The notes beneath the pieces were generated by a model. It saw only the letters and a list, made by a program, of their open reading frames with translations, searched no databases and was not told the DNA's origin. Positions 4,388 to 26,680 of a stretch of DNA of 48,090 nt are shown in pieces. The stretch covers positions 1 to 48,090 of the forward strand of contig CALMRE010000268.1 in assembly GCA_937871295.1 (NCBI GenBank), written 5' to 3'. The translations under genes were made by a program, and so were the position numbers. Within the stretch, counting starts at the first letter, position 1; every line of letters begins with the position of its first letter. Source of the DNA: an uncultured bacterium. Lineage in GTDB: Bacteria > UBP6 > UBA1177 > JAKLFG01.

Positions 4388-5502
4388 GATTTTCTCCCCT
4401 CTATCACGGCAACATAACTTTTCAGAAAATGGTCGCCACCGAATAATTCTTCTGCCATTCTACGCGATTCTTGTCCCATTGCCTCTCTCTCTTCCGGAGA
4501 CAATACTATGAATTTATTAATTGCTTCTGCAATGGAAGTGGGATCTTGCGGATCGAAAAGAAAACCGTTCTTTCCTTCTTTCACCAATCGCGCATGGTCG
4601 CAGACATTGCTTGCCAAGATCGGCTTACCGCACGCCATCGCCTCACAGATTACATTGGGAAATCCTTCTATAAAAGAAGGAAGCATCACAGCATCGGCAG
4701 AATGATAAACTCTAATGATTTCTCGCACCGGTTCGTGGAGCAAAAACACGGCCTCCAAGTTGCGGTCCTTTATAGCCGACAAAGTATCAAGATAACATTG
4801 GGACCTCGGTGTCGGATAGCCATTCTCAAAAAGATTGTTGCCATACCACGAGATATGTACTTTCGCCAACAAGTTCTTATGAAGAAGATGGTGAAGAGCC
4901 GCGACTACATTGGCGGGATTCTTTTTTTTCTGGAAACTAGCCACTATTATTATCTCAACATCATCTTTTCTTATCGGCTTCGAGGTAACGACCGTCGAAA
5001 ACTTGGTTAGATCGACTGTGTTGATGATGGTATTCACTTTACTCTCTAGTCGCGGAGCCATTTTCTTCAGTTTATCAGAAAAGTCCCAAGAATTGCAGAC
5101 CACGACATCGGCAAGACGATGCAGGTGGAAGCTGACTCTATATCGCATGGAGAGTGTCGGAATACCCACTCTTTCGGACACGATAACACGCCAGTTTCCC
5201 CAGATACCGCATATTTCATTGACGATATTTGGAAAGTTAAGGTAAGAGATTACGGCGATTGGGGCTATTTTTATGATCTCCCGACAGATTCGACAGAAGC
5301 GAAGAACTTTAGATTTTCCATATACAGAGACATGTCGAATGCCGACATCGGCAAGATCATTGTTGAAGAATTCATCGACCTTGAAGTAGGTTATCAATGT
5401 CACCTCATACCCTGCCTTGTCCAGCACATTGCAAAGATAGACCATCTGTCGTTGGGCGCCACCGGAACCAAGCGAATCGATAAGACAAACTATTTTTTTC
5501 AA
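4384..5502 (-). CDS. Glycosyltransferase family 4 (GT-B)
   Basis: 372 residues. It starts [19 protein letters not shown], the glycine-rich acceptor-side loop of GT4 enzymes. [17 protein letters not shown] lies near residue 185 and [18 protein letters not shown] near residue 280, the retaining GT-B donor-site signature; [16 protein letters not shown] follows. Likely a cytoplasmic, membrane-associated transferase extending the repeat unit. Its ATG overlaps the stop of the polymerase gene by 4 bases, and its own stop overlaps the acyltransferase start by 4. AT-rich codon use resembles the neighbouring Wzy and GT genes and differs from the GC-rich conserved genes elsewhere in the window. Confidence 0.92.
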
Positions 5503-6701
5503 GCCAATCCCTCTTGCTCAGTCCTTTCTTCTAGTTTAGCCGATAACCAAACGACCATCAATAAATTACCCTTCTCATAATAACTCACCATCCCCACATC
5601 GAGGGCCAAAATCAGCAATAACAAAACAAAATAAAGTACATTCCCCGCTACTTTATTCATCATATAGGTGCGCAAAATCAAGAAATAACCCAAGTAATAT
5701 AGTGTGAAACCTATAAGACCAAGGCATGCAAGCAATTCCATTATATTATTATGCGCATAAGCTCCCCCGGTAAAATAGCGAAAAGCATTGACCCCCACGC
5801 CGATAAAAGGATTGTCCAGAAATACCGCTCCTGCTTTTTGCGCCAACAATATTCTGCCTTCCGTGCTTGCTTCCATCTCCTCTTCTTCACCGCTAAATCC
5901 ATCCATCATTCTATCGGCCCTATCAATGGAGTATTCTATTACTTCCATCTGACCTTCTGAGAAAAAGGTATCGTAGAAAACATAGAAAATACTTAGAATA
6001 ACCAATGAAAATAATAGTATTCGGCGAGGTTTGGCAAATTGCGTTATCAGAAATATCGCGGCCAAGATAACAGAAAAGAAAATACCTTTTCGACTACCGG
6101 TAAGAAACGAAACATACAGGGCAAATATTATATTAATTACGGCAACTACCTGTATGTACCTGTTATTATACAAACGAAGGAAAACCAAACTTGCAAAAAT
6201 ACTGAACATCATGGCAATACCTAATTGATTCGAATTAGGAAAGGTGCCTCCGAATCTTAAACTCCTATAAATTTCGTAACTCGGCGTGTACACACCCAAG
6301 GCAATCAGATAGTTGAAAAAAGCACCAACAACTACGCCGCTCAACATCCAATGAGAAATTCGATACCGTTTAAGCAAAGCATATATTAAAAAGTTATTCA
6401 AACACACTTGTACTAGTGTGATATTGGTATTATAAGAAACCTCCGGCAATGACGACCAGAAAAAGCTAAGAAAAGAAAAAAAGACAAACACCCCGTACGA
6501 CAACAAATAGCCGTTGAATGGTATTTTGTAGTTTCTGTTGAGAATGCTGTCTGCCAAAAAAACAAAAACCAACAACAAGTTAAGAGCATTGCGGTATTGA
6601 ACATTGCTCTCCTGCTGGAAAATGATTTGTCCCGCCATATAGACAAGCAACAAAAAACCTGTTGCTACTTGCCATTTGGCTCTCGGCAATGATTCCATCA
6701 T
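5499..6701 (-). CDS. O-antigen polymerase / ligase family membrane protein (Wzy-like)
   Basis: 400 residues with about ten hydrophobic segments spread from residue 15 to 390. Family landmarks are GGTFPNSNQLGIA near residue 150, FLTGSRKGIFFS near residue 200, and a periplasmic loop ending in NPFIGVGVNAFRYFTGGAYAHNN near residue 300, the Wzy_C/O-antigen-ligase signature including the conserved AHN. It should polymerise flipped repeat units on the periplasmic side of the inner membrane. A large acidic loop (GFSGEEEEMEAST) precedes that motif. It lies 4 bases after the ATP-grasp gene and overlaps the downstream GT4 by 4. WaaL-like ligase function cannot be excluded from sequence alone; the operon position beside Wzx and GTs favours polymerase. 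Confidence 0.88.
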   Translation of the reverse strand: MMESLPRAKWQVATGFLLLVYMAGQIIFQQESNVQYRNALNLLLVFVFLADSILNRNYKIPFNGYLLSYGVFVFFSFLSFFWSSLPEVSYNTNITLVQVCLNNFLIYALLKRYRISHWMLSGVVVGAFFNYLIALGVYTPSYEIYRSLRFGGTFPNSNQLGIAMMFSIFASLVFLRLYNNRYIQVVAVINIIFALYVSFLTGSRKGIFFSVILAAIFLITQFAKPRRILLFSLVILSIFYVFYDTFFSEGQMEVIEYSIDRADRMMDGFSGEEEEMEASTEGRILLAQKAGAVFLDNPFIGVGVNAFRYFTGGAYAHNNIMELLACLGLIGFTLYYLGYFLILRTYMMNKVAGNVLYFVLLLLILALDVGMVSYYEKGNLLMVVWLSAKLEERTEQEGLA

Positions 6702-6705
6702 GATC

Positions 6706-7815
6706 CTACGGCTGTCTTATGTTTATATGAAGCAGCTCTTCCAAAATACAGGTCTGAGGCCAAAAATGGCCCTCTATAAAATTCCCCGCTCTATCCCAGT
6801 GGCCCGGGCAATTATATATTGCGGTATCATTATACGAATAACTCATCTCGCAGAACTCGATACCGCCGCTCTCATTCTTCAGAAAGTCATAGGCCATCGA
6901 CTGGAATTTCAATTCAGCGGAAACCTTAAAGGCAACCTCCAGACAGCGTTTGTCGATTTTGTTTTGATCGTAGTCTATCTTGCCGCTGCCCGATGAGCGA
7001 AAGTCATTTTTTCGATTCATTCTGCGAAAGGCAAAGGCGCGATCGCCAATGACCGTAATGCGGGTGTCGAAGGCATTGCCCGGAAGGAACTTTTGGAAAA
7101 GAGCATAGTTCTTATGGGGGAGATAGCCTTCCATAGGGTCTTCGCCACGGAAACTTCTCATTATATTAAGAAGATGCCATTTGATGGTCTTAATGAAACT
7201 GGAGGGATGGAACCATACATTGTCGGCACTGGGCACATGCCATTGTCGAATCCCCTTCCCGAACATGGCCTTTATCAACTTTATCGCCTCGGCTCTTTTC
7301 CTTACCAGCACCACGTTAGACGAGCCTGCCCCCCCTTTGAGTTTGAACACAACAGGATAGCGAGCTTCAGTCTCGGCCCAATGAAGGGCCTCCTGTTTAT
7401 TCCAGAAAATCCATGATTCGGTGTAGGGAAGATCGTGTGCTTTGCAAAGAAGATATTGGCTGATTTTATCATCGTAGTGCCAAGATGTACTCCAATCCGG
7501 GAAGACTCTGACCCCTATTTCGCGCTCCCATATCTGTGTAAGGATCGGCGCTAAAAGGTAATGATCATCCGTGAGATTTCTGCGAAAGATCACCGTATCT
7601 TCTTTTGTGATCGACCACATTTCGGAGGGTAACAGCGGAAGAATGTTATGAGGTATATCATTAATTGCAAGAAGTTCTAGGAATTTTCTGTTAAAAGAAG
7701 CAACCTCTTTCTTGTCTTTACTGCCATCAATCACTATCAATACTCGCAACGCCGTCTCCATCCAATTGTAAATAGCATTGCCATCAACTTGTTGTATCTC
7801 GCTGTCTTCTGTCAT
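6706..7815 (-). CDS. ATP-grasp family protein of the glycan operon
   Basis: 369 residues from the ATG at 7815; a TTG two codons upstream (7821) and an ATG at 7761 are alternative starts. The 7761 start would avoid the 32-base overlap with the preceding gene, but no start has a strong Shine-Dalgarno. YPVVFKLKGGAGSSNVVLV near residue 130 is the ATP-grasp glycine-rich lid. FDTRITVIGDRAFAFRR and the C-terminal GIEFCEMSYSYND supply the Arg and acidic metal-binding positions. ATP-grasp enzymes activate a carboxylate as acyl phosphate and join it to an amine or thiol. In a polysaccharide operon the likely job is to amidate a carboxyl-bearing sugar, or to attach an amino acid to one. Substrate unknown. 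This is the natural partner for a lactyl-sugar made by the MurA/MurB homologues. Confidence 0.8.
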   Translation of the reverse strand: MTEDSEIQQVDGNAIYNWMETALRVLIVIDGSKDKKEVASFNRKFLELLAINDIPHNILPLLPSEMWSITKEDTVIFRRNLTDDHYLLAPILTQIWEREIGVRVFPDWSTSWHYDDKISQYLLCKAHDLPYTESWIFWNKQEALHWAETEARYPVVFKLKGGAGSSNVVLVRKRAEAIKLIKAMFGKGIRQWHVPSADNVWFHPSSFIKTIKWHLLNIMRSFRGEDPMEGYLPHKNYALFQKFLPGNAFDTRITVIGDRAFAFRRMNRKNDFRSSGSGKIDYDQNKIDKRCLEVAFKVSAELKFQSMAYDFLKNESGGIEFCEMSYSYNDTAIYNCPGHWDRAGNFIEGHFWPQTCILEELLHINIRQP

Positions 7816-8962
7816 AATCAAAAGCGCGAACGGTAGTTATCAATCCATGCAACAGGTCTCCGATCCAGCACCCCATTGAGAAAGAAGCCACACGATATAT
7901 GGCCTCATAACGGGGTAACGCCGAACGAATATCAAAATGATCAATAAAAAATTTCTTGGAAAAATGACTGTATTCTTTTCGTTTTAAGGAATCGTTTGTC
8001 AGTTCAGCGATCATCGCGATAGTCTGTTGTTCGCTATAATCTATTAACACATTGCGCGGGGAGAAGTTGGTAACCATGAGCGCCTCAACATTTTCCTTGT
8101 TCACCAGCACCGGCATCGCAGAACCCGCAAGAGGCGTCAAAAGAACCTTTCCCTTTGATGCCGCTTCCTGTATCGAACGCCCTGTCCCCACGACCAGATC
8201 GGCGGCAGGAACGAGTTCTGCCGCGTTCAGGGTAAAGTGAGAATCTGTCAGGAAATGGACCTCCAATCCTTGCGCCATCTTTTTTAATTCTTCAAGTACC
8301 GGTTGATCTTCGACAACACCCACCAGAACGAGTGCGTGACGCGCGCCACGATTCGTCAACTCATTAGAAAGACGGATGGTTTGGCGGAATGATTCGGCAT
8401 ATGTATTGCCGATCCGCGCGATACGCATGAGTACGGGCGCACCTTTCGCAAGGGCGCGAACCTCCGCGACGCGGGCGGGGTCTTCCGGTGGTTCAACCGC
8501 TCTATTTGGTATCAAGTGAAGCGCCGTTTTTCTAAATTTCGGCTGGGCGCGGAAATAGTCGTAATTCTCTTTGCTGAAACAGATCAGTGTTTTTGCGAAC
8601 GGATACCACCGGGTCGGGTTGGGTCCCCCTGCTTTGGTGTGAACAAGCGGCAAACGATAGCGCAGTGCGGCAATTCGTGCAAAGAAAAGGGCTCGAGTAT
8701 CGAAGGAATGAATTATGTCGGGCTTGACCTCATTGATTTTATGCAAAATATCCCTGATTACATTAATTGTTTTCTTCCCGTTGTAAAAAATATATTCTGT
8801 TTTTACATTTGATTGACGAAAAATTGCCAGCGGCAGTACGCCTATGCAGAGAATACAAACATCTCCTATGGCTACCATGGTTTCGGATATAGTCTTCAAG
8901 CTCATCGCATGTCCGCCTTGTCCATGTCCCCTTGTGCTAGTTATTAAATAAAGAATTTTCAT
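7784..8962 (-). CDS. Glycosyltransferase family 4-like
   Basis: 392 residues. It begins MKILYLITSTRGHGQGGHAMS, a GT-B opening, and has PDIIHSFDTRALFFARIAA near residue 95, typical of GT4. LMRIARIGNTYAESFRQTI lies near residue 190. The donor-site segment is GTGRSIQEAASKGKVLL rather than the common EGFPxxxLEAMACG; the Glu is kept but the subgroup is divergent. It abuts the MurB-like gene with no gap and its 3' end overlaps the ATP-grasp gene. Predicted to add one sugar of the repeat unit on the cytoplasmic face. Family call good, specificity unknown. Confidence 0.82.
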   Translation of the reverse strand: MKILYLITSTRGHGQGGHAMSLKTISETMVAIGDVCILCIGVLPLAIFRQSNVKTEYIFYNGKKTINVIRDILHKINEVKPDIIHSFDTRALFFARIAALRYRLPLVHTKAGGPNPTRWYPFAKTLICFSKENYDYFRAQPKFRKTALHLIPNRAVEPPEDPARVAEVRALAKGAPVLMRIARIGNTYAESFRQTIRLSNELTNRGARHALVLVGVVEDQPVLEELKKMAQGLEVHFLTDSHFTLNAAELVPAADLVVGTGRSIQEAASKGKVLLTPLAGSAMPVLVNKENVEALMVTNFSPRNVLIDYSEQQTIAMIAELTNDSLKRKEYSHFSKKFFIDHFDIRSALPRYEAIYRVASFSMGCWIGDLLHGLITTVRAFDYDRRQRDTTS

Positions 8963-9820
8963 CTAAACTACTTGCTGTTCCAGTTCGAGTTCCACGCCGT
9001 ATCTTTCCCGCACCTTTTGCTGAATATGGGCCACGAGCGCAAGGATATCGGCGCCGGTTGCGCCACCGGAATTCACAACGAATCCAGCATGTTTTGGCGA
9101 CACTTCGGCCCCGCCGATGCGATATCCCTTCAAATTCAATTCCTCTATCATCTGACCAACGAATCGCCCCTGAGGTCGCTTGAAAACACTACCGGCACTG
9201 GGCATATCCCACGGCTGTTTGCAGTGCCGCTCTTCACGGATGCAATTCATTTTCTCTGTTATCGCCGCGTTATCTCCCCGCGAAAGACGGAACACCGCGC
9301 GGGTGATGACCGCCGACATCTTCTGAAAGGCGCTCTGCCGGTAGCCGTAAGCAAGTTCCTCTTTTCTCGCGGTCCGTAGGGTGCCGGTCGCGGTATCGAC
9401 CCATTCGACCGATTCGAGGAGCGACCACAGATCGCCATCGTAGGCACCGGCGTTCATATAGACACCGCCGCCGACCGTCCCCGGAATATCCCAGAATATC
9501 TCCATTCCCGCGAGTCCCGCGTCGCGTGCCGTTTCACTGAGCTGTTCGAGCGTTGCCCCCGCCTGTGCCGTTATCCGGTCATCGGTCACCGTGATGGTGC
9601 TCATCTCCTCGCGGATGAATACAAATATCTCTTTTTCATAGCGCGGTTTAGAGAAGATGAGATTGCTGCCATTACCGAAAAAGAGTATCGGGTCGCCGCG
9701 ATGTTGGGCGCAGAGGGCGACGAGATCGGCCGCGTTCTGAGGAAAATAGGCACGGTGAACGGTTGCCGGTATCCGGTATGTGTTGTAGTTGGTCAGGTCA
9801 AGGTTCTCGCGATATATCAT
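8963..9820 (-). CDS. murB: UDP-N-acetylenolpyruvoylglucosamine reductase homologue (MurB)
   Basis: 285 residues, within the usual MurB range. MurB is an FAD enzyme reducing the enolpyruvyl ether of UDP-GlcNAc-enolpyruvate to the lactyl ether UDP-MurNAc with NADPH. NTYRIPATVHRAYFP opens the FAD domain. GNGSNLIF (49-56) and DIPGTVGGGVYMNAGAY (111-127) bind flavin and phosphates. YGYRQSAF supplies the active-site Arg near 161. SAGSVFKRP holds the catalytic Ser near 211, and GVELELE near 275-281 supplies the acid. All expected catalytic residues are present, so it should be active. It overlaps the flippase gene by 4 bases and abuts a GT4, placing it inside the surface-glycan operon rather than a division/cell-wall cluster. 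It may serve peptidoglycan, a muramic-type surface sugar, or both. Confidence 0.93.
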   Translation of the reverse strand: MIYRENLDLTNYNTYRIPATVHRAYFPQNAADLVALCAQHRGDPILFFGNGSNLIFSKPRYEKEIFVFIREEMSTITVTDDRITAQAGATLEQLSETARDAGLAGMEIFWDIPGTVGGGVYMNAGAYDGDLWSLLESVEWVDTATGTLRTARKEELAYGYRQSAFQKMSAVITRAVFRLSRGDNAAITEKMNCIREERHCKQPWDMPSAGSVFKRPQGRFVGQMIEELNLKGYRIGGAEVSPKHAGFVVNSGGATGADILALVAHIQQKVRERYGVELELEQQVV

Positions 9821-11052
9821 GCCGTCTGCGGTGTCCTAAAGGTTAAGCGGTAGTAGTCCCAAGTATAATAAAGTGCGGCAAAGGCATAACAGACGCTGGA
9901 GGCTATCGCCGCTCCGATAATACCAAGCCGAGGGATCATGATGATGTTGGCGGCGATATTGGCTAGAGCCGAAACGGAAAAGACCTTCATCGCGACAAGC
10001 GGAAATCCACGCGCGGCGAGGTCGCCGTTCAATAGTTTAAAAAATACCATAAGATAGGTGCCGGGGAGCAGAATTATCAGCGCGGTAGATGCAGAGACAA
10101 ATTCGCTTCCATAGAAGAAAGGAATAAAATAAGGGGCGGCAACACCAATAAAAACAATGAGTGGAAGGGTAGCAATCATGAGTTTTAATGTGTTCTGCCA
10201 CAACTTGTGAGAAAAAACCACAGGGTCTTTAGATGACACACTGTAAGAAAAAATTATCGATTTCAGGACATCAGGAATGGTCCATAAAAGAAGCGATAAT
10301 GACATTGCCACCGAAAAGATACCAACATCCTTTTTGTCCATGAAGTGATTGATAATCAAGACATTCGCCCGATAGTTGAGACTCATTACAAAAAGAGGCA
10401 ATGCAAATTCGAAGCCCTTGCGGACAACAGGCCACCCTTTTTCTTTAAATAATTTGAAGTCAAAAACAAAAAAACGGTAACCTTCAATATTCCGCACCCA
10501 CAAATAAGCGTGTAGCGCATTGGCGAGGTTAGAAATTAGAACTATCAAGAAATAGGTCACAAGGCCGCCATTAAGAAACAGCACAAAGACCACTACCAAC
10601 ACGAATTCGACGATGACCGGGATGATCTCTGCGTAATTGAGTTTGGCGATATTTCGTTGAGATAGTGCAAACGCATTGGTCGAGCCAATGTAACGTTGGG
10701 GAAAAATAGAGGCAAGGACCAGCAGTGTGATGATCCAGTTAGAAAGGATATCCTGTTCATAATAGATGATGACTAGGGCTATCACGGAAATGAACGAGGT
10801 CAACAGGTAGAGTATGGATTGAATACTGGAAATATCTTGAATGGAATAGCCTTTTTTAGACATGAAATAAGAAAAAGAACTGGTGGCGCCCCAATTTGTT
10901 AGGGAAAGGATTAGTTGCAAAGAAACAAAATAGACGGCGATGAGACCGCGCCCTTCGGCACCTAAACAACGTGCGACGATGACGCCCATCACGAATGACA
11001 ATCCCAGATGAAACGCCTTTATAAGCAAGGAACGGATAAAATCTCTTTTCAT
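9817..11052 (-). CDS. Polysaccharide flippase (Wzx-like, MOP superfamily)
   Basis: 411 residues with about twelve hydrophobic segments, the length and topology of Wzx/RfbX-type flippases. The N-terminus MKRDFIRSLLIKAFHLGLSF runs into GVIVARCLGAEGRGLIAVY, where the LGAEGRG motif is conserved in polysaccharide exporters. RANVLIINHFMDKKDVGIFSVAMSL in the middle and LLPGTYLMVFFKLLNGDLAARG toward the end also fit. It should move undecaprenyl-linked repeat units from the cytoplasmic to the periplasmic face for the Wzy-like protein encoded downstream. It starts one base after the acetyltransferase stop, and its stop overlaps murB by 4. AT-rich base composition. Confidence 0.92.
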   Translation of the reverse strand: MKRDFIRSLLIKAFHLGLSFVMGVIVARCLGAEGRGLIAVYFVSLQLILSLTNWGATSSFSYFMSKKGYSIQDISSIQSILYLLTSFISVIALVIIYYEQDILSNWIITLLVLASIFPQRYIGSTNAFALSQRNIAKLNYAEIIPVIVEFVLVVVFVLFLNGGLVTYFLIVLISNLANALHAYLWVRNIEGYRFFVFDFKLFKEKGWPVVRKGFEFALPLFVMSLNYRANVLIINHFMDKKDVGIFSVAMSLSLLLWTIPDVLKSIIFSYSVSSKDPVVFSHKLWQNTLKLMIATLPLIVFIGVAAPYFIPFFYGSEFVSASTALIILLPGTYLMVFFKLLNGDLAARGFPLVAMKVFSVSALANIAANIIMIPRLGIIGAAIASSVCYAFAALYYTWDYYRLTFRTPQTA

Positions 11053-11053
11053 A

Positions 11054-11575
11054 TTATTTCTGTAGCGGTTTTGCCGGAGCGCCGGCGGCGATACAGTCAG
11101 GCGGTATATCTTTTGTTACCAGTGCGTGGGCACCGATCACCGAATTTCTTCCCACACGAACATTGCCGATTAGGGTGACACCGGAATAAATAGTAACCCC
11201 ATCCTCAATGACCGGATACTCTTTGGGACGATCCTTTCTTCCCGACGAACCGAAGGTAACATGCTGAAATACGGTGCAATTGTCGCCGATGACGGTTCTG
11301 TCGCCGATCACTATGCCTATGGGGTGTGCAACTTTAAAGTTTTTTCCTATCTGTGCCTTGAGGGAAACCTCGCTACTGAAAAATATGAGGTAATGATACT
11401 TGATAAAAATGGTAAACAGTCTGAGCAAGGGAATCCTTCTTAAAAGACACCCGAGTCGGTAAAGAAACACGAATTGGAATCTCGGATCAAAAAAGAAAGT
11501 AATGATCGAAGACCAAAGGCTCTCCTGCATCCGGTAAAAGCGGATATCTGATAGGACGGCTTCCCTAAAGCTCAT
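11054..11575 (-). CDS. Serine O-acetyltransferase-like hexapeptide acyltransferase
   Basis: 173 residues. A short helical N-terminal part is followed by a left-handed beta-helix. AHPIGIVIGDRTVIGDNCTVFQHVTFG around residues 85-110 is the CysE-type active-site coil. IYSGVTLIGNVRVGRNSVIGAHALVTKDIPPDCIAAGAPAK closes the helix. Family members transfer acetyl from acetyl-CoA to serine or to sugar hydroxyls. CysE-like proteins of this short form are common in exopolysaccharide clusters, where they are probably sugar acetyltransferases. It starts 11 bases inside the murA homologue and ends one base before the flippase, so it is translationally coupled to both. True cysteine biosynthesis seems unlikely in this setting, but cannot be excluded. 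Confidence 0.87.
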   Translation of the reverse strand: MSFREAVLSDIRFYRMQESLWSSIITFFFDPRFQFVFLYRLGCLLRRIPLLRLFTIFIKYHYLIFFSSEVSLKAQIGKNFKVAHPIGIVIGDRTVIGDNCTVFQHVTFGSSGRKDRPKEYPVIEDGVTIYSGVTLIGNVRVGRNSVIGAHALVTKDIPPDCIAAGAPAKPLQK

Positions 11576-12809
11576 GGATGTTCCCTTGCAAATAAGTGAT
11601 TTTTTCCACTATGCTCTCATATCCCCGTTCGACCTGCTCGAAATTGGTGATGGTCGTTTTGCCATCGGCGCACAGCCCGGCAAGCACCAGCGCGGCACCA
11701 GCGCGCAAGTCGAGCGCGGTCACGGCCGTCCCTTTCAGCTTCTTGCCACCCGTCAGTTTCAGCATATCGCCCTGCACCGAACTCTCCGCCCCCATCTTCT
11801 TTAACTCTTCGACATACTGGAACCGCCCCGAAAAGCGCAGATCGACGATGCGGCTTTCGCCCTTTGCCATCAGCCCGTACACCGCGAAGAGCGGCTGCAT
11901 ATCGGAATTTATCGCCGGATAGGGACCGGTCGCGATATCCACCGGATAGATCGCCGAGGGACGGACGATGATGCTGTTGCGGTCCTGCGCGATGAAGTAT
12001 CTCAGCCCCGATTCACGCAGATGGATAAGCGGCACTTCCAAATGATCGAAGGGAAAATTCCGTATCTCCACCTCACCGCCGGTCACCGCCGCCGCGATGA
12101 GAAAAGTGATCGCCTCCATATTGTCGGGAATGCAGGTGTAGGCGCATCCGTGCAGTTTTTCGACCCCTTCCACTACTATGGATTCCTGTCCGTTAACCGT
12201 AATCTTGGCCCCCATCGCGCGGAGCATGGCGATAAGGTCGAGTATCTCGGGACGCACATGGGGATTCCAGATGGTGGTGGTTCCCTTTGCCAAGGTTCCC
12301 ATGAGTATGCCGTTCTCGGTAGCGCCGGTGGAGCGGATGGATAGCCGTATGTCGGCTCCTGTCAACCGTCCTTTTGACTTTGCACAGAGATAGCCCGCCT
12401 CTTCCCATACCTCCGCCCCGAGCGTTCGCATGGCCATTTCGTGCAGGTCATATTTCCGCTCGCCGAGATCGCAGCCGCCCGGTAGCGGTACCCGCCCCTC
12501 ACCGTGACGGGCGAGGAGTGAGCCAAGCATAAGCAGGGTGTTGCGAATGGTGCGGCCATCCCATGAAAGTTCTGTTTTTGGTTTTTGGTCGGTGACGGTA
12601 AGGGTATTTCCCTGCACGGCTATCTTCTTGCCTACCTTTTCCAACATCTCGATCTGAGTCCGAACATCAAGGATATTTGGAATGTTACGAAGGATAACCG
12701 GTTCTTCGGTAAGAAGCGAGGCCACCAGAAGACGAAGCGAACTATTCTTCGCGCCGGAGACATCGACCGTGCCGGTGAGTCGGGACCGTTGTACCGAAAC
12801 TGTCTTCAT
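11565..12809 (-). CDS. murA: UDP-N-acetylglucosamine 1-carboxyvinyltransferase homologue (MurA)
   Basis: 414 residues. MurA transfers enolpyruvate from PEP to the 3-OH of UDP-GlcNAc. The active-site set is complete: Lys21-Asn22 in SGAKNSSLRLL, Arg in GRTIRNT near 86-89, the fosfomycin-target Cys113 in LPGGCDLGERKYDLH, Asp in AINSDMQPLF, and the C-terminal VERGYESI. The loop reads CDLGERKYDLH where E. coli has CxIGARPVDLH, so it is a divergent subgroup. The start is set by GGAGGGG at 12813-12819; an open frame runs upstream to 12959 but lacks family similarity. It is the first gene of the 13-gene glycan operon, with a TTGACA-N16-TAGAGT promoter just upstream. Paired with MurB in the same operon, it could make a dedicated muramic-acid-type sugar. 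Confidence 0.92.
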   Translation of the reverse strand: MKTVSVQRSRLTGTVDVSGAKNSSLRLLVASLLTEEPVILRNIPNILDVRTQIEMLEKVGKKIAVQGNTLTVTDQKPKTELSWDGRTIRNTLLMLGSLLARHGEGRVPLPGGCDLGERKYDLHEMAMRTLGAEVWEEAGYLCAKSKGRLTGADIRLSIRSTGATENGILMGTLAKGTTTIWNPHVRPEILDLIAMLRAMGAKITVNGQESIVVEGVEKLHGCAYTCIPDNMEAITFLIAAAVTGGEVEIRNFPFDHLEVPLIHLRESGLRYFIAQDRNSIIVRPSAIYPVDIATGPYPAINSDMQPLFAVYGLMAKGESRIVDLRFSGRFQYVEELKKMGAESSVQGDMLKLTGGKKLKGTAVTALDLRAGAALVLAGLCADGKTTITNFEQVERGYESIVEKITYLQGNIHEL

Positions 12810-18023: not shown

Positions 18024-19280
18024 CTACAGCCGTGCCGTGACCTGTTTTTTATCGAGGATCGATTTCACATCGAAGAGGACGGCATCTTTCTTGAGGAGCG
18101 CGGGGATGTCGAGGTCTTTGAATTCATTGTGGGAAACGGCGAGGACCACGGCGTCGTAGGGTCCGGCGGGCTTTTTGACGGGGTGGATGTCGTACTCTTC
18201 CACTATTTCTTCGGGTTCCGCCACCGGGTCGTAGACATCAATGGCGCAGCCGAAATCGGCGAGTTCGCGGATGATGTCGATGACGCGCGAGTTGCGGATG
18301 TCGGGGCAGTTCTCTTTGAAGGTCATGCCGAGGACGAGCACTTTCGCGCCGAGTATCTTGGCGCCGTTGCGGCTCATGAGTTTCACCACTTTCTGCGCGA
18401 CGAAGTTCCCCATGTTGTCGTTGATGCGGCGACCGGCGAGTATCACTTCGGGGTGGTAGCCGAGCGATTCGGCTTTATGGGTCAGGTAGTAGGGATCGAC
18501 GCCGATGCAGTGGCCGCCGACGAGTCCGGGGCGGAACGGGAGGAAGTTCCATTTGGTCCCCGCCGCTTCGAGCACTTCGACGGTGTCGATGCCCATCCGT
18601 TCAAAGATGAGCGCCAGTTCGTTGACGAAGGCGATGTTGATGTCGCGCTGGGAGTTCTCGATGACTTTGGCCGCTTCCGCCACTTTTATCGATGAGGCTT
18701 TGTAGGTGCCGGCGGTGACGATGGAGCGGTAGAGCGCGTCGACCTTCTCGGCCGCCTCCGGCGTCGAGCCGCTGGTCACTTTCTTTATGGTGGTGACGGT
18801 ATGGACCTTGTCGCCGGGATTTATCCGTTCGGGGGAGTAGCCGCAGAAGAAATCTTTGTTGAATTTGAGTCCGCTGCCCTTCTCAAGTATCGGGACGCAG
18901 TCCTCTTCGGTACAGCCGGGGTAGACGGTCGATTCGTAAACGACGATGTCTCCTTTCTTGAGCACCTTCGAGACCGTTTCGGTCGCCTTCACCACCGGGG
19001 TGAGATCGGGCCGTTTGTAGATGTCAATGGGGGTCGGGACGGTGACGATGTAGATGGCGCAGGGGCGGATATCGTCGAGTTCGGCGGTATAGGTGAGATG
19101 CGTGGCCGCTTTGAGGCCGTCGGGCGACACCTCGCGGGTGCGGTCGTGGCCGCTTTTCAGTTCGGCGATGCGCTCTTTTTTTATGTCGAAGCCGACCACG
19201 GGACGAACCTTCCCGAATTCGACCGCGAGCGGCAGGCCGACATAGCCGAGCCCGATGATGGCGATGGGTGCGTGGGTCAT
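18024..19280 (-). CDS. tviB: UDP-N-acetylhexosamine 6-dehydrogenase (TviB/WbpO type)
   Basis: 418 residues, full length. It oxidises C6 of UDP-GlcNAc or UDP-GalNAc to the uronic acid with two NAD+. [19 protein letters not shown] is the N-terminal NAD-binding loop. [18 protein letters not shown] marks the TviB/VipA/WbpO subgroup; WecC/ManNAc dehydrogenases differ there. [10 protein letters not shown] lies near residue 150. The catalytic Cys lies in [12 protein letters not shown] near 265, and [17 protein letters not shown] is the C-terminal UDP-binding part. It is last in the aminotransferase-MaoC-CitE-acyltransferase-dehydrogenase operon, 21 bases after the acyltransferase. It supplies an acidic sugar to the surface glycan. 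Whether GlcNAc or GalNAc is used cannot be read. Confidence 0.92.
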
Positions 19281-19301
19281 GGGGACCTCCGTTGAGAACG
19301 G

Positions 19302-19952
19302 TTACCTTTGTTTCAGAAGTTTCGCGGGATTGCCGACAACGATGCTGTTCTCCGGCACATCGTTGAGCACCACCGATCCGGCGCCGATCAGACTGAAATC
19401 GCCGATCTTCACCTTTTCCCGGATGGTGGCGTTACTGCCGATATGTACCGCCTTCCCGACCAGCACATTGGCCCCGATGACGCCGTTGGTCGCCACATGG
19501 GCGAACCGTTCGAGCGTGCTGTCGTGACCCACGAACGAGTTGGGGAGCAGGATGCAGTTGTCGGCTATGGTGGTGTCGGGCGACAACTGGCACAGCGGCG
19601 AGAAGAGACACCCGTTCCCGATCTTCGCGTAGCCCTTGGGAATGATGGCGGTATGGTGTATCAGCGTCGCGAAACGGTCGGGGGGAATGGGGAGGGTCTC
19701 AACCTTATGGAAGGTCGCCTTTTCGTTCTGCAGGCCCACATAGGCGATGAAGAAATAGCAGTTCTCCCGTACATATTTCTCGACATCTTCGGTCGTTCCG
19801 ATGACCGGTATCTTTTTGTATTTCCCTACCTCGGAGCCGACCGGGAGCGCGTCGTTGAGAAAGCCGGCGACCTCATAGTACCCCAATGAATCGGCGACCG
19901 ATGCGGCGATCATGCCGATGCCGCTGCCGCCGAGAATGACCAGTTTTTTCAT
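19302..19952 (-). CDS. NeuD/PglD/VioB-like sugar N- or O-acyltransferase
   Basis: 216 residues. An N-terminal Rossmann-like domain (KKLVILGGSGIGMIAASVAD) is followed by a left-handed beta-helix. The catalytic His is likely in ATLIHHTAIIPKGYAKIG near 110, with LLPNSFVGHDSTLERFAHVATNGVIGANVLVG and the closing SLIGAGSVVLNDVPENSIVVGNPAK after it. PglD, NeuD and VioB acylate amino sugars or sialic acids from acyl-CoA. Because the operon starts with a VioA-like aminotransferase, N-acylation of dTDP-4-amino-4,6-dideoxyglucose is the best guess. The acyl donor may be made by the adjacent CitE and MaoC proteins. It overlaps citE by 4 bases. Confidence 0.88.
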   Translation of the reverse strand: MKKLVILGGSGIGMIAASVADSLGYYEVAGFLNDALPVGSEVGKYKKIPVIGTTEDVEKYVRENCYFFIAYVGLQNEKATFHKVETLPIPPDRFATLIHHTAIIPKGYAKIGNGCLFSPLCQLSPDTTIADNCILLPNSFVGHDSTLERFAHVATNGVIGANVLVGKAVHIGSNATIREKVKIGDFSLIGAGSVVLNDVPENSIVVGNPAKLLKQR

Positions 19953-20836
19953 TTCGCCCCCCGCTGTTGAATGAGTTCGTGCTTTTTCAAGGTCTTGTTG
20001 GCCGCGATCACCATCGGCGGGCCGATGAATTTGTTCTTCATGATGGCGACCCCTTTCCCCTCCTTCTGCGCCTCCTCGAACAGGCGCAGCATCTCCTTCG
20101 CGTCGGCGATCTCTTCCGCGGAGGGGCTGTAGTATTGATGCACGAGCGGTATCTCCTTGGGGTTAAGCACCAACATCCCCTCGAAGCCCAATTCTTTGGC
20201 CAGCGTGATATTTTTCTCCAGATCGACCAGATCGTGCACATGGATGTGGACCGTGTCTATCGGGATGACGCCGTTCGCTTTCGCCGCCATGGCGATGAGC
20301 GCGCGTGCGCTGAAAATACTTTTTCCCTCTGCGTCATGTATCCCGCCGAGGTCGCTGACGAAATCCTCACAGCCGAACGCGATGGCCACCACCCGTTTGG
20401 ACGCCTGACAGATATCCTGCGCGTTGAGTACCGCGCCGGTCGTTTCTATCAGCGGTATGATCTTGTAGGTGCCGGTCGGGATCCCCTTTTCGTACTCGAT
20501 GGTTTCGAGCAGTTTGTCGAAGAAATAGACATCCTCCCCTTTCTGCGATTTGGGATACATGAAGCCGGTGATGCCGGGGAGGGTGAGTTGGTGGATGTCC
20601 CGCAGAAGATGGCCGCTCTCCCGGTCGTTCACGCGCGGGAAGACCACCCGTCCGGCGAACGCGCCGTCGCCGACCATTTTTTTGATAAGATCGCGGGCGA
20701 CCTGCTTGTTCTGCGCCGGCTGTGCCGAGTCTTCGATGTCAAGGAGCAGAACATCGGCCGTGGAACGGGCGGCGCTCTGCATCAGCCGTTCGTTGTGGCC
20801 CGGCACGAACATGAGACTACGCATCAGGTACTTCAT
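19949..20836 (-). CDS. CitE-like HpcH/HpaI aldolase (malyl/citramalyl-CoA lyase family)
   Basis: 295 residues, standard CitE length. MRSLMFVPGHNERLMQ is the typical N-terminus. DVLLLDIEDSAQPAQ, RVNDRES near 65-75, PKSQKGEDV near 105, LIETTGAVLNA with the metal-binding Glu near 135, and AFGCEDFVSDLGG with the metal-binding Asp near 165 are all present. Family enzymes cleave or form malyl-CoA, methylmalyl-CoA, citramalyl-CoA or related 3-hydroxyacyl-CoAs with Mg2+. No citrate lyase alpha or gamma subunit is nearby, so it is not classical citrate lyase. It overlaps the MaoC gene by 4 bases and the acyltransferase by 4, inside a glycan operon. This suggests it makes or tailors the acyl-CoA used on an amino sugar (inference). 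Confidence 0.88.
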   Translation of the reverse strand: MKYLMRSLMFVPGHNERLMQSAARSTADVLLLDIEDSAQPAQNKQVARDLIKKMVGDGAFAGRVVFPRVNDRESGHLLRDIHQLTLPGITGFMYPKSQKGEDVYFFDKLLETIEYEKGIPTGTYKIIPLIETTGAVLNAQDICQASKRVVAIAFGCEDFVSDLGGIHDAEGKSIFSARALIAMAAKANGVIPIDTVHIHVHDLVDLEKNITLAKELGFEGMLVLNPKEIPLVHQYYSPSAEEIADAKEMLRLFEEAQKEGKGVAIMKNKFIGPPMVIAANKTLKKHELIQQRGAK

Positions 20837-21300
20837 TTTTCACCTCCCCGTGTCGGTATCAATACTTTCCTGCGTAACGAGAGGACCGGTATCTTATCCT
20901 GATTGAAGGCGGTCGTTTCGACATAGACCACGCCGCGGTCGGGCTTTTTCGCCGAACGGGTCACCGACAGCACTTTGGTGTGCGCATAGAGGGTGTCGTT
21001 GACGAACACGGGAGCCAGATGAACGATCTTCTCATACTCAAGGTTGGCAATTGCCTTGCCGCTGATGTCGGGGACCGTCATGCCGACCACCAGACTGAGA
21101 ACGAGCGTCCCGACCACCAGCACCCGGCCGTGTTGCGACCGCGCGGCGAAGTCGGCGTTGGTGTGGAGCGGATGGTGATTCATGGTGAGCAGGGAAAAAA
21201 GATTGTTGTCCGATTCAAAGATCGTTTTGGAGAGGGCGTGCTCGATCACCTCCCCTTCGGTGAAATCTTCCAGATAACGCCCTAGCGCGAAACCGCTCAT
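20833..21300 (-). CDS. MaoC-like (hot-dog) acyl-CoA hydratase
   Basis: 155 residues with a MaoC dehydratase fold. GRYLEDFTEGEVIEHALSKT opens, and ESDNNLFSLLTMNHHPLHTN around residues 30-48 carries the conserved catalytic Asp and His (D..LF..LT.N.HPLH). The closing strands are KIVHLAPVFVNDTLYAHTKVLSV and VVYVETTAFNQD. This subgroup resembles mesaconyl-CoA and itaconyl-CoA hydratases, which are frequently paired with CitE-type lyases. It adds water to, or removes it from, an enoyl-CoA. It begins 14 bases after the aminotransferase and overlaps citE. By analogy with the enoyl-CoA hydratase of the anthrose operon, it probably shapes a 3-hydroxyacyl group for sugar N-acylation. Confidence 0.87.
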   Translation of the reverse strand: MSGFALGRYLEDFTEGEVIEHALSKTIFESDNNLFSLLTMNHHPLHTNADFAARSQHGRVLVVGTLVLSLVVGMTVPDISGKAIANLEYEKIVHLAPVFVNDTLYAHTKVLSVTRSAKKPDRGVVYVETTAFNQDKIPVLSLRRKVLIPTRGGEK

Positions 21301-21314
21301 CTCTTACTCCTTTA

Positions 21315-22463
21315 TTATGTTGCTTTTATCACCGTGATCGTTCTTTCTATCTCCTCCCCGGTGATGTCGGGGAAGATCGGCAGACAGAGGACCTGCTCGG
21401 CGAACCGTGCGGCGACCGGCAGTTTCTCCGGTGCGGCCGACGGCAGATCGCGGTACGGCGCGAAGGAACTGATGAGCGGGTAGAAGTAGCGCCGCGGCAG
21501 GATATCGTGCCGCTTGAATTCTTCGAACAGGTCGTCGCGGCTCTTGCCGAGGTGCGCCGCCTCCACCGTTATCGGGAAGTAGGGCCACGCCGGTGTCACC
21601 CCGACGGAGGGCCGGACGATGCCGATGCCGGGGATCCCCGCAAGGGCGGCGGTGTAGCGCTCCGCGACGGCGCGGCGGCGCGCCAGCGCTTCGTCGATAT
21701 GGGTAAGGGCGAGGAGGCCGAAGGCGGCCTGCACCTCGTTCATCTTGCCGTTCATGCCGACCTCGGCGACGGTCGTTTCGCCGGTAAAACCGAAATTTTT
21801 GAGCGAGTCGATCCTCTTTTTCATCGCCTCGGAAGAACAGACTATTGCGCCCCCCTCGAAGGTGCCAAAAACTTTCGTCGCATGGAAACTGAGGACCGAT
21901 AGATCGCCGTCGCGGAGCGGCGGACGGGCGGGCCGCGTTACGCCGAAGAGGTGGGCCGCATCGTAGAGCACTTTGAGATCGTGCCGTTCGGCGATGTCGG
22001 CGATGGCGGCGGTGTCGCACGGGTTGCCGTACACATGGACCGGCAGAATGGCGCGGGTCCGGGGGGTGATCGCCGCCTCTATCGTGGCGGGGTCGAGGTT
22101 GCCGTGGGTCGGTTCGACATCGCTGAATACCGGCGTGAGGCGGTTCCATTTGATGGCGTGGGCGGTCGCCACGAAACTGAAGGGGGTGGTGACGACTTCG
22201 CTCCCCTCCGGCAGGTCGAGCGCCTGAAGCGCGGTGAGGAGGGCGTTGGTGCCGTTGTTGAAAAGAGAGATGAAGGGGACATTGAGATAGCGGCAGAGCG
22301 CCCGTTCCAGTTCCTGATGCTGAGGACCGCCGTTGGTGACCCAGCGGCTCTCCCATATCCGTTCGAGGTAGGGAATGAACTCGGCGAGCGGCGGCAGGAA
22401 CGGCCGGGTGACCGGGATGGGCTTGCGGTCGGACGGGCTTTTTTTCTGTTCCGGTCGCATCAT
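21315..22463 (-). CDS. DegT/DnrJ/EryC1/StrS aminotransferase, VioA-like
   Basis: 382 residues from the ATG at 22463; ATGATG follows GGAGAGGA, and the longer open frame upstream runs through repeats. A PLP-dependent sugar aminotransferase: IPVTRPFLPPLAEFIPYL and ESRWVTNGGPQHQELE at the N-terminus, LFNNGTNALLTALQAL near 60, PVHVYGNPCDT near 140, and the PLP lysine in SFHATKVFGTFEGG near 185. The opening closely resembles VioA-type enzymes that convert dTDP-4-keto-6-deoxyglucose to dTDP-4-amino-4,6-dideoxyglucose. RfbA and RfbB encoded at 24.7-26.7 kb supply that substrate. It heads the five-gene operon and has a TATAAT promoter of its own. A WecE-like (galacto) product is the alternative. Confidence 0.9.
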   Translation of the reverse strand: MMRPEQKKSPSDRKPIPVTRPFLPPLAEFIPYLERIWESRWVTNGGPQHQELERALCRYLNVPFISLFNNGTNALLTALQALDLPEGSEVVTTPFSFVATAHAIKWNRLTPVFSDVEPTHGNLDPATIEAAITPRTRAILPVHVYGNPCDTAAIADIAERHDLKVLYDAAHLFGVTRPARPPLRDGDLSVLSFHATKVFGTFEGGAIVCSSEAMKKRIDSLKNFGFTGETTVAEVGMNGKMNEVQAAFGLLALTHIDEALARRRAVAERYTAALAGIPGIGIVRPSVGVTPAWPYFPITVEAAHLGKSRDDLFEEFKRHDILPRRYFYPLISSFAPYRDLPSAAPEKLPVAARFAEQVLCLPIFPDITGEEIERTITVIKAT

Positions 22464-23470: not shown

Positions 23471-24736
23471 TCAGGCCCTTTCCCGTTCGATCCGGTCGAT
23501 GGCGGCGCGCATCCGGGCGATCCGCGTTTCGGAGGAATATTCGCGGGAGACGATGGCGCGGTTGGCGATGATCATGTCGCGGGGAAGCGGGGTCGCGAGC
23601 GTCTCTCCGTTCAGGTCGTCGGTCATCGAAAAAACGGTCGCGCCGAGGTTTTTCAGGTGGCGGTGGATGATCGAGGTGGGCGAGAGGAAGACCTTTGCGC
23701 CGTTCCAGAGGGCGATGAGGACCGCGCCGAGCGCCTGCTGGCGTTCGTGGCCGAAGAGCGCTACGGGGCAGGTGCGCAGGAGTGCCGCGTACTGCGGGAA
23801 GGGGAGGAATTCGGTCACCGGCCGGAAGCGGGCGCCGAACAGGTCGTTGCCCAGACGGGCGATCCGCTCGCCATAGGTCGGGTCGCCGTAACTGAGCGGC
23901 ACGACGATCTCTCCGCCGGGCGGCGGGGTGCGCCGCAGGAGGTCCAGAATATCGGCGTGGTTGTTCTCGAAGGTGGCCGAGTTGCCGATGAGTATGCCGT
24001 TCCCTTCGCAGAGCGGGGCGGCCGGTATGGTCGCGGCGTCGAAAAGGTCGTGGGTGACATAGTTGAAGGGTATCTCGCGGGGGGTGAAGAACTCTTTCCG
24101 CGCGAGGAGTTCGTATTCGTCGGGAAGGGTGGTGGAACAGTAGGTTATCCGGCCGACGGCCCGTTCGGTGGCGGCCCGTTCCCGCGCATCCCGTTCGGCG
24201 GCGGTCTCGCGCCGGCGGGCGAGCCGTTTCCGCAGCCGTTCGCCGATCAGCGCAAAGGGGCGGGGATGGAAAAAGAGGATATCGCCGAGGTCGCGCAGAT
24301 CCCCTTTTTTGAAAAAGCCTCCCTTCCTTTCGCGGTCGAGTTCGCGGCGGAGGGCGGCGGTCCGTTCGCCGAACAGTTCGATGTCGATGAGGTGCCGGTT
24401 GTAAAGATCGTAGCCCCACGATATCCACCAGATCCGGATCCCGGCGGGAATGGCGGGGAGCAGTTCGATGTCGACGGCGTAGAGCGAATGGAGCACCAGC
24501 ACGTCGTAGGATTGCCCGTCGGTCAGAACGCGCGCCAGTTCGCGGTCGGCCGCGGCGAATAGCTCGACCCGGTCGCGGCGTTTGATGTTGTTGAAGGTGT
24601 AGCGCGGTTTTTCGGTGCGGAACAGATAGCGGTTATGGGCGACCATTTCGTCGAACCGCGCCATCACGCCGTCCATCAGGGGGCTGTCGAGTACGAGGTG
24701 GAGGAAGCGGAGGCGGGCAACCCGTTCGCCGGTCAT
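23471..24736 (-). CDS. WecF/RffT-like 4-amino-4,6-dideoxyhexose transferase (GT56 family)
   Basis: 421 residues from the ATG at 24736, four bases after the rfbB stop with GGTGAG upstream; the frame extends further but only over rfbB. WecF moves dTDP-Fuc4NAc onto a lipid-linked disaccharide in enterobacterial common antigen. Family features are IRIWWISWGYDLY near 115, ILIGNSATFENNHADIL near 250, IVVPLSYGDPTYGERI near 280, FGHERQQALGAVLIALWNGAKVFL near 335 and HLKNLGATVFSM. It sits directly behind rfbA and rfbB, whose product plus a DegT aminotransferase yields a dTDP-4-amino-4,6-dideoxyhexose, so the donor sugar is probably that compound, N-acylated. Identified by eye; length exceeds E. coli WecF through a charged insertion (RRRETAAERDARERAATER). 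Confidence 0.78.
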   Translation of the reverse strand: MTGERVARLRFLHLVLDSPLMDGVMARFDEMVAHNRYLFRTEKPRYTFNNIKRRDRVELFAAADRELARVLTDGQSYDVLVLHSLYAVDIELLPAIPAGIRIWWISWGYDLYNRHLIDIELFGERTAALRRELDRERKGGFFKKGDLRDLGDILFFHPRPFALIGERLRKRLARRRETAAERDARERAATERAVGRITYCSTTLPDEYELLARKEFFTPREIPFNYVTHDLFDAATIPAAPLCEGNGILIGNSATFENNHADILDLLRRTPPPGGEIVVPLSYGDPTYGERIARLGNDLFGARFRPVTEFLPFPQYAALLRTCPVALFGHERQQALGAVLIALWNGAKVFLSPTSIIHRHLKNLGATVFSMTDDLNGETLATPLPRDMIIANRAIVSREYSSETRIARMRAAIDRIERERA

Positions 24737-24740
24737 CGGC

Positions 24741-25808
24741 TCACCGTCCGCCGTAGTGGGTATCGATCCAGCGGCGGTATTCGCCGGTGCGGACCGACTC
24801 GATCCACGCGGGGTTGTCGAGATACCAGCGGACCGTCGCGGTGAGAAGCGCGCGGAAATCGGGGGTCGGCCGCCAGCCGAGTTCACCCTTGATCTTTTCG
24901 CAGTCTATCGCGTAGCGGCGGTCGTGGCCCGGCCGGTCGGCGACGAAGGTGATGAGCCGGGTGTATTCGGCGCGGGCTTTCCCCGTTATTTCGGCCATGA
25001 TGTCGCAGAGGAGATGGACGATGTCGATATTCTTCCATTCGTTGTCGCCGCCGATGTTGTAGGTCTCACCGACGCGGCCACGGGCGATGATCTCCCCTAT
25101 CGCGGCGCAGTGGTCGGCGACATGGAGCCAGTCGCGGATATTGCCGCCGTCGCCGTAGACCGGGAGCGGTTTCCCTTCGCGCAGGTTGAGGATCATGAGC
25201 GGGATCAGTTTTTCGGGGAACTGATAGGGGCCGTAGTTGTTGGAGCAGTTGGATATGGTCACCGGCAGGCCGTAGGTGTGATGGTAGGCCGACACGAGGT
25301 GGTCGGAGCCCGCTTTCGAGGCCGAATAGGGACTGCGCGGATCGTAGGCGGTCGTTTCGAGGAACCGGCCGGTACTGCCCAGCGAGCCGTAGACCTCGTC
25401 GGTCGATATGTGGTGGAACAGGACATCGGTGCGATCTTTCCACGCCGCGCGGGCCGCTTCGAGCAGGGTGAAGGTGCCGACGAGATTGGTCCGGATGAAG
25501 GCGGCCGGCCCGCTGATGGAGCGGTCGACGTGCGATTCGGCGGCGAAATGGACGACGGTGTCGGGCTGCTCTTGGGCGATGAGGGCGGTCATTTTCGGGG
25601 CGTCGCAGATATCGGCGTGGAGGAAACGGTAGCGGTCGGGATGGGCCGCGGCGATATCCTCGAGGCTCAGCGGATTGCCGGCGTAGGTCAGCGCGTCGAC
25701 ATTGACGATGCGGCCCGAAAAATCGGGGCGCGCCAGCAGATGGCGGATGAAGTTGCTCCCGATGAAGCCGCACCCGCCGGTGACGAGGATGTTGTGAGGA
25801 TTTCTCAT
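24741..25808 (-). CDS. rfbB: dTDP-glucose 4,6-dehydratase
   Basis: 355 residues, standard RfbB length. An extended SDR enzyme converting dTDP-glucose to dTDP-4-keto-6-deoxyglucose with bound [23 protein letters not shown] is the nucleotide loop. [12 protein letters not shown], the catalytic [10 protein letters not shown] (Thr-Asp-Glu) and [11 protein letters not shown] (YxxxK) are all present, followed by [15 protein letters not shown] and [16 protein letters not shown]. The start is the ATG at 25808, overlapping the rfbA stop as ATGA; a longer frame upstream lies inside rfbA. No rfbC or rfbD follows, so the keto sugar is not going to rhamnose here but is available to the VioA-like aminotransferase. 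Confidence 0.96.
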
Positions 25809-26680
25809 GGGCGTTTCTGTTTCAGGATATCGAGCAGGTATTCGCCGTAGCCCGACTTGCGGACCGGTTCGGCCAGTTTTTCCAGTTGCCCGGCGTCGAT
25901 GAAGCCCATGCGGTAGGCGACCTCTTCGATACAGCCGATCTTGAGCCCCTGCCGCTCCTCGATCGCTTTGACGAACATCGCGGCGTCGGCGAGGCTCTCG
26001 AAGGTGCCGGTGTCGAGCCACGCGAACCCGCGCTGGAACAACTCGACGTTCAGTTTCCCCTGCGCAAGATAGTGGCGGTTGACATCGGTGATCTCGATCT
26101 CGCCGCGATGCGACGGTTTGACCTGTTTCGCCACCTCGACCACGGTATTGTCATAAAAATAGAGCCCCACCACCGCGTAGTGCGAACGGGGATTCTGCGG
26201 TTTTTCCTCCAGCGTCTCGGCCTTGCCGTTCTTGTCGAACGAGACCACGCCGTAGCGCTCCGGGTCGGTCACCCGGTAGCCGTAGACGGTCGCCCCGTCG
26301 GGCCGGGCGACGGCGCGGTCGAGATAGTCGCGCAGGCCGTGGCCGATGAAGATATTGTCGCCCAGTATCAGCGATACGCGGTCGTTGCCGACGAATTTTT
26401 CGCCGACGATGAACGCATCGGCAAGCCCGCGCGGCGCGGTCTGCACGGCGTAACTGAACGACAGCCCCAGTTGCGCGCCGTCGCCGAACAGTTCCTGAAA
26501 GCGCGGCAGATCCTGCGGCGTCGAGATGATCAGGATATCGCGGATCCCCGCCAGCATCAGCGTCGAGAGCGGATAGTAGATCATCGGTTTGTCGTACACC
26601 GGGAGCAGTTGTTTGCACACGGTCCGGGTGATCGGGTAGAGCCGCGTCCCGCTGCCGCCCGCCAGAATAATGCCTTTCAT
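25805..26680 (-). CDS. rfbA: Glucose-1-phosphate thymidylyltransferase
   Basis: 291 residues, exactly RfbA size. Makes dTDP-glucose from dTTP and glucose-1-phosphate. [20 protein letters not shown] is the nucleotide-binding signature, followed by [54 protein letters not shown] with the metal-binding Asp, and [20 protein letters not shown]. The ATG at 26680 is preceded by GAGGAG; the frame upstream has no family similarity. First gene of the rfbA-rfbB-wecF-like operon, with a predicted promoter at 26718-26745. Confidence 0.97.

Follow-up and report, generated by a model that had tools for sequence, protein, structure and literature searches.

A MaoC-CitE gene pair in a viosamine-like amino-sugar locus of an uncultured bacterium: a candidate source of N-acyl groups

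Gene content of the locus

We analysed a stretch of 48,090 nucleotides (contig CALMRE010000268.1, hereafter the window) from an uncultured bacterium of the lineage UBP6, whose genome assembly comprises 3.4 Mb in 271 contigs and is 99% complete. We confirmed five intact genes on the minus strand, spanning 22463-18024, in which a MaoC-type hydratase and a CitE-like enzyme stand between an aminotransferase and a sugar N-acyltransferase. In the direction of transcription the genes are:

21315..22463, minus strand: DegT/DnrJ/EryC1 aminotransferase, DesI/VioA type (PF01041, E-value 2.3e-98)
20833..21300, minus strand: MaoC-type hydratase/dehydratase, RipB/mesaconyl-coenzyme A (CoA) hydratase lineage (PF19315/PF01575; Asn41/His46)
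19949..20836, minus strand: TIM-barrel enzyme, CitE-like, in a clade of its own that lacks the lid Asp (Gly272; PF03328, E-value 2e-41)
19302..19952, minus strand: NeuD/PglD/VioB-family sugar N-acyltransferase (TIGR03570, 169.5 bits, over the cut-off of 160.8)
18024..19280, minus strand: uridine diphosphate (UDP)-GlcNAc C6-dehydrogenase, TviB family (NF011729, 608.6 bits, cut-off 592)

An earlier reading of the sequence alone (the sequence-only reading) had described these genes as a single operon. Their common strand and the 4-base ATGA overlaps of the MaoC/CitE and CitE/NeuD gene pairs agree with this, and a clear ribosome site precedes each of the MaoC, CitE and TviB genes. With a gap of ~220 bases before the aminotransferase gene, the genes upstream and the five genes make up one run that is not necessarily a single transcript. 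The arrangement is far beyond chance, since it recurs in other phyla.

Recurrence of the MaoC-CitE pair

Using a GTDB scan with one genome per species, we found 77 loci with relatives of the window CitE, at up to 80% identity, to which two genomes nearer to the window's own were added (n=79). These 79 family loci were compared with 9 loci of canonical CitE: MaoC adjoins CitE in 71 and 1 of them, respectively, an N-acyltransferase occurs in 74 (within 1.2 kb in 53) and 0, and one or more amino-sugar or polysaccharide markers in 77 and 1. The counts are descriptive, because the family loci cannot be taken as independent, many contigs are truncated and the control set is small. The sequence-only reading had named catabolic operons without sugar genes, if found consistently around the orthologues, as speaking against it; the orthologues instead lie almost always with sugar genes. 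Part of the loci stem from metagenome bins, and isolated odd taxa may reflect misbinning.

The contiguous order aminotransferase-(second CitE)-MaoC-CitE-NeuD is found in ten loci, including those of Malikia (L051), Sunxiuqinia (L061), Gelidibacter (L076), Calditrichota (L022, L031) and Electryonea (L012), together with L062, L063, L065 and L077. Cultured environmental species with the cassette include Sunxiuqinia elliptica, Malikia spinosa and Gelidibacter sediminis. The first four of the five genes thus co-occur elsewhere, whereas TviB directly follows NeuD only in the window among the loci compared. TviB is a variable neighbour outside the conserved cassette, and its inclusion in the module has to be dropped. 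Within the window's own order, the cassette was found in only one other genome among those searched.

In other family loci MaoC-CitE stands beside PseF/PseG/NeuB-type nonulosonate genes, FdtA or PaaK-like ligases, or beside an AAC(3)-like acyltransferase, sometimes with a VimE-like deacetylase. The acyltransferase after CitE is either a NeuD hexapeptide enzyme or an AAC(3)-like protein (PF02522), and these two families are unrelated. MaoC-CitE is swapped among at least four amino-sugar contexts (Qui4N, that is, 4-amino-4,6-dideoxyglucose; pseudaminic-type; FdtA-type; AAC(3)-like acyltransferase) and is not specific to Qui4N, a correction to the sequence-only reading. The CitE family forms one clade in the tree (support 100/98), with L078, one of the 77 loci, falling outside. 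Sugar contexts are scattered over the clade and taxa from about a dozen phyla are mixed across the tree, as expected for a mobile cassette.

A second CitE or MaoC of the same kind was not found in the rest of the genome searched, and a search of plasmids for relatives returned canonical CitE only, along with catabolic or distant MaoC. None of the window's sugar genes was seen in a Streptomyces locus whose MaoC is 50% identical and whose CitE is divergent.

Two further arrangements were observed. A locus from Omnitrophota (L019:5038-7455) carries genes for 2-oxoacid:ferredoxin oxidoreductase subunits (POR domains) directly before MaoC-CitE-NeuD; enzymes of this kind convert 2-oxo acids to acyl-CoA. 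Cloacimonadota and relatives (L037, L041, L055, L060, L064) share a separate conserved cluster, with MaoC-CitE followed by a PaaK-like ligase, PGA_cap or NadA, LPG_synthase_TM, GT2, NeuD and an aminotransferase.

Active sites of CitE and MaoC

The window CitE has a TIM barrel with a C-terminal hairpin lid, and the Arg and Mg-ligand Glu/Asp residues of CitE-like lyases. In its AlphaFold model (predicted local distance difference test score 92.8) a hairpin at 264-271 is followed by a helix, forming the lid. Among solved structures its fold is nearest to those of malyl-CoA lyases and CLYBL, with template modelling scores of 0.84-0.87 to 5ugr, 4l9y and 5vxc. Residues E35, D36, R68, E131, E157 and D158 are invariant in all 79 family sequences. 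Citrate lyase was ruled out, as CitD/CitF/CitC neighbours are missing and CitE reaches 187 bits against a cut-off of 443.

The position equivalent to the lid aspartate (Asp299/Asp318 in malyl-CoA lyases) is Gly in 71 sequences, Ser in seven and Asp in none, with one of the 79 unscored. In the window it is Gly272, which in the model immediately follows the lid hairpin, an arrangement shared with malyl-CoA lyases. Outside the family the lid Asp is found in 9 of 10 CitE-like sequences; the tenth, which lacks it, is distant and has a RipB-like MaoC next to it. The lid Asp is also present in RipC (Y. pestis, 3qll), Rv2498c (6aq4), CLYBL and the Deinococcus CitE (1sgj). The window CitE thus departs from the beta-hydroxyacyl-CoA lyases (malyl-CoA lyase, RipC, Rv2498c, CLYBL) at this residue. 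The clade-wide loss of the lid Asp with Mg and substrate residues kept is a new observation, and the description of CitE as a plain malyl- or citramalyl-CoA lyase does not hold. Solvent or the substrate's own carboxylate may take the place of the lost Asp; alternatively, the enzyme may condense its substrates with decarboxylation or catalyse a different reaction, e.g. hydrolysis.

In about 22 loci MaoC is immediately preceded by another, divergent CitE (e.g. L013:6708-7532, L046:4220-5065). The lid residue of this paralogue is Glu, and its residue 157 is mostly His. Because the lid of a CitE-like enzyme lies over the adjacent subunit, it is conceivable that the two CitE proteins form mixed oligomers.

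In MaoC, Asn41 is conserved in 74 of 75 family sequences and His46 in 75 of 75. The Asn is shared with mesaconyl-CoA hydratase (4e3e domain 2) and with catabolic RipB-type relatives, while PhaJ-type sequences have Asp. This Asn/His site, likewise a new observation, points to dicarboxylic C4-C5 acyl-CoAs as the probable substrates.

Sugar precursor and neighbouring genes

The genes upstream of the aminotransferase, on the same strand, are:

25883..26680, minus strand: RfbA, glucose-1-phosphate thymidylyltransferase, sugar precursor supply (PF00483)
24741..25808, minus strand: RfbB, dTDP-glucose 4,6-dehydratase (dTDP, deoxythymidine diphosphate), sugar precursor supply (PF16363)
23471..24736, minus strand: GT56-family glycosyltransferase (PF07429, E-value 1e-13; Pfam places WecF-type dTDP-Fuc4NAc transferases in this family)
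23082-22681, minus strand: lone PIN-domain gene within the region of the sugar operon; together with the GT56 gene it stands between RfbB and the aminotransferase

RmlC (PF00908) had no match in the 99%-complete genome and is present in 11 of 14 control genomes. Synthesis of dTDP-rhamnose by the standard route is thereby ruled out as the task of RfbA and RfbB, and dTDP-4-keto-6-deoxyglucose would therefore be free for the aminotransferase, which bears out the precursor supply proposed earlier.

DesI is the top NCBIfam model for the aminotransferase (285 bits, under its cut-off of 650), and the top PDB match is 2po3 (E-value 6e-62). DesI-type enzymes form dTDP-4-amino-4,6-dideoxyglucose. The protein is thus a predicted dTDP-4-keto-6-deoxyglucose 4-aminotransferase giving dTDP-Qui4N, where Qui4N rather than Fuc4N is our inference. 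The NeuD/VioB-type acyltransferase has VioB (7txp, E-value 8e-27) as its top PDB match. The viosamine-like logic of the sequence-only reading is therefore retained: dTDP-4-keto-6-deoxyglucose, a 4-aminotransferase and a VioB-like acyltransferase, with MaoC-CitE where the acyl-making enzymes stand. The GT56 enzyme is a candidate transferase of the 4-amino sugar, and the TviB-type dehydrogenase most likely makes another residue of the same polymer.

Elsewhere in the polysaccharide cluster we found a second MurA (window 12959-11565, minus strand; 407 bits, over the cut-off of 392.7), a second MurB (9820-8963, minus strand) and a RimK-like ATP-grasp gene (7821-6706); further MurA and MurB copies of the genome lie on contigs C140 and C190. 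Together these suggest that the polymer contains a sugar of muramic type (lactyl ether), which may be amidated. The G+C content is ~0.42-0.52 at window positions 4000-12000 (the glycosyltransferase/Wzy/MurB part) compared with ~0.58-0.64 around the five genes, and this drop suggests that the cluster is a mosaic.

Proposed pathway and alternative explanations

We propose that RfbA and RfbB would provide dTDP-4-keto-6-deoxyglucose, which the aminotransferase would convert to dTDP-4-amino-4,6-dideoxyglucose, the presumed acceptor. CitE may act on a beta-hydroxyacyl-CoA with a carboxylate at its far end (malyl-, citramalyl- or methylmalyl-CoA type), which would arise when a short acyl-CoA is joined to a 2-oxo acid. 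MaoC would interconvert such a compound and its enoyl form (fumaryl, mesaconyl or itaconyl type). By this presumed thioester chemistry, flowing towards NeuD, the pair would make or finish the acyl-CoA donor with which NeuD caps the 4-amino group of dTDP-Qui4N, and the finished sugar would then probably be handed on by the GT56 enzyme.

We consider it fairly probable that the locus encodes a viosamine-type pathway with an exchangeable, acyl-CoA-making MaoC-CitE cassette, whereas any one specific acyl group can be put forward with much less confidence. Several points weigh against this model. Many NeuD-family enzymes use acetyl-CoA, and we know of no structure of the polysaccharide or of the product of any relative. 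The window's operon contains neither a CoA ligase nor a CoA transferase. Moreover, the residue presumed to take the alpha proton of acetyl-CoA is lost clade-wide: in malyl-CoA lyases this lid Asp is the presumed catalytic acid/base, and malate synthase activity was lost when the equivalent Asp was replaced by Asn (PMC3832036), so that simple malyl-CoA synthesis appears doubtful.

More tentatively, MaoC-CitE may be a mobile acyl-CoA-making cassette plugged into many amino-sugar pathways, in which C-C bond chemistry without the lid aspartate (e.g. decarboxylative condensation, or the substrate carboxylate as base) gives malyl-, citramalyl- or unsaturated dicarboxylyl-amide sugars. In favour of the general model, marine bacteria are known to carry malyl and 2-hydroxyglutaryl groups in N-linkage on their amino sugars, and one malyl group has been reported to be attached through C4 (PMC3210612). 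Such an attachment has the connectivity of malyl-CoA lyase products.

An unlikely alternative is that MaoC alone makes an ordinary (R)-3-hydroxyacyl-CoA, e.g. 3-hydroxybutyryl-CoA, with CitE acting in proofreading, as a thioesterase or as a partner subunit without lyase activity. The lost lid Asp would fit this role, and Qui4N, bacillosamine and diaminouronic acids commonly bear 3-hydroxybutyryl as their N-acyl group (PMC3210612). However, MaoC carries Asn whereas the PhaJ-type enzymes in the same alignment have Asp, and CitE, which is seldom found without MaoC, retains all Mg and substrate residues.

It also seems improbable that the cassette serves the carbon skeleton of the sugar, or another sugar of the cluster, and not N-acylation. 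The TviB-type dehydrogenase directly downstream and the extra MurA and MurB genes would be in line with such a function, but the recurring partner of MaoC-CitE, regardless of the sugar pathway, is an N-acyltransferase, while TviB varies. We give little credence to a transfer of plain acetyl by NeuD, with MaoC-CitE only shaping local CoA pools; although TIGR03570 is named for acetyltransferases, this would leave the tight, widespread linkage and the association with AAC(3)-like acyltransferases unexplained. An itaconate/mesaconate degradation pair (RipB-RipC like) placed in the cluster by chance is very improbable and was rejected on context, scores and lid residue: RipB and RipC are among the top NCBIfam relatives, but their scores are far under cut-off (127.9 of 340 bits for MaoC against NF038241, RipB; 105.7 of 375 for RipC), the operon is without a CoA transferase, MaoC-CitE is the only such pair in the genome, 77 of the 79 family loci have sugar markers and Y. 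pestis RipC has the lid Asp.

In line with the sequence-only reading, no described pathway with the same gene combination was found in open-access papers. The same literature yielded nothing on MaoC or CitE in polysaccharide loci, on a link of citramalyl- or malyl-CoA to nucleotide sugars, or on the enzymology of amide-linked malic and 2-hydroxyglutaric acids. MaoC-CitE probably makes an unusual acyl group for which no enzymology has yet been described, and the CitE clade may harbour new enzyme chemistry. Non-acetyl N-acyl groups on surface sugars help to set serotype and recognition. Across many phyla the conserved two-gene cassette is linked to the acylation of amino sugars, and it can serve as a genetic marker for such groups. 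The CitE with its clade-wide change at a catalytic position is a concrete enzyme to assay.

Comparison with known systems

Like the window, the anthrose operon of Bacillus anthracis combines an aminotransferase and an acyltransferase with a hydratase, which there makes a 3-hydroxyacyl-CoA; we know of no CitE-type enzyme in it. With malyl-CoA lyases and CLYBL the window CitE shares the fold, the Arg/Glu/Asp site and the C-terminal lid, but it is only 22-29% identical to them and has Gly, or in relatives Ser, in place of the lid Asp. Itaconate RipB-RipC (itaconyl-CoA hydratase and citramalyl-CoA lyase) are likewise paired MaoC and CitE homologues with the Asn/His hydratase site and Mg-binding residues. 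Unlike these, the window pair stands in a sugar context without a CoA transferase, scores far under the family cut-offs and has lost the lid Asp.

The O-antigen R-group genes of Flavobacterium psychrophilum (wfpC-G) also form a swappable acyl module that feeds a PglD-family acyltransferase acting on an amino sugar (PMC6519341). There, however, fatty-acid-synthase-type enzymes and UDP-QuiNAc4N are used, and its dihydroxyhexanoyl group was rejected as a precedent for CitE because of these synthase-type genes.

Among described systems the viosamine island of P. syringae comes closest; in it VioA and VioB are paired with VioS, VioR and an acyl carrier protein as acyl makers (PMC3927599). While the island uses a ketoacyl synthase, a reductase and the carrier protein, the window has MaoC and CitE and no carrier protein. 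Both place a dTDP-Qui4N aminotransferase, predicted in the window, and a VioB-type acyltransferase beside acyl-making genes, which are putative in the window and make a 3-hydroxyacyl group in the island.

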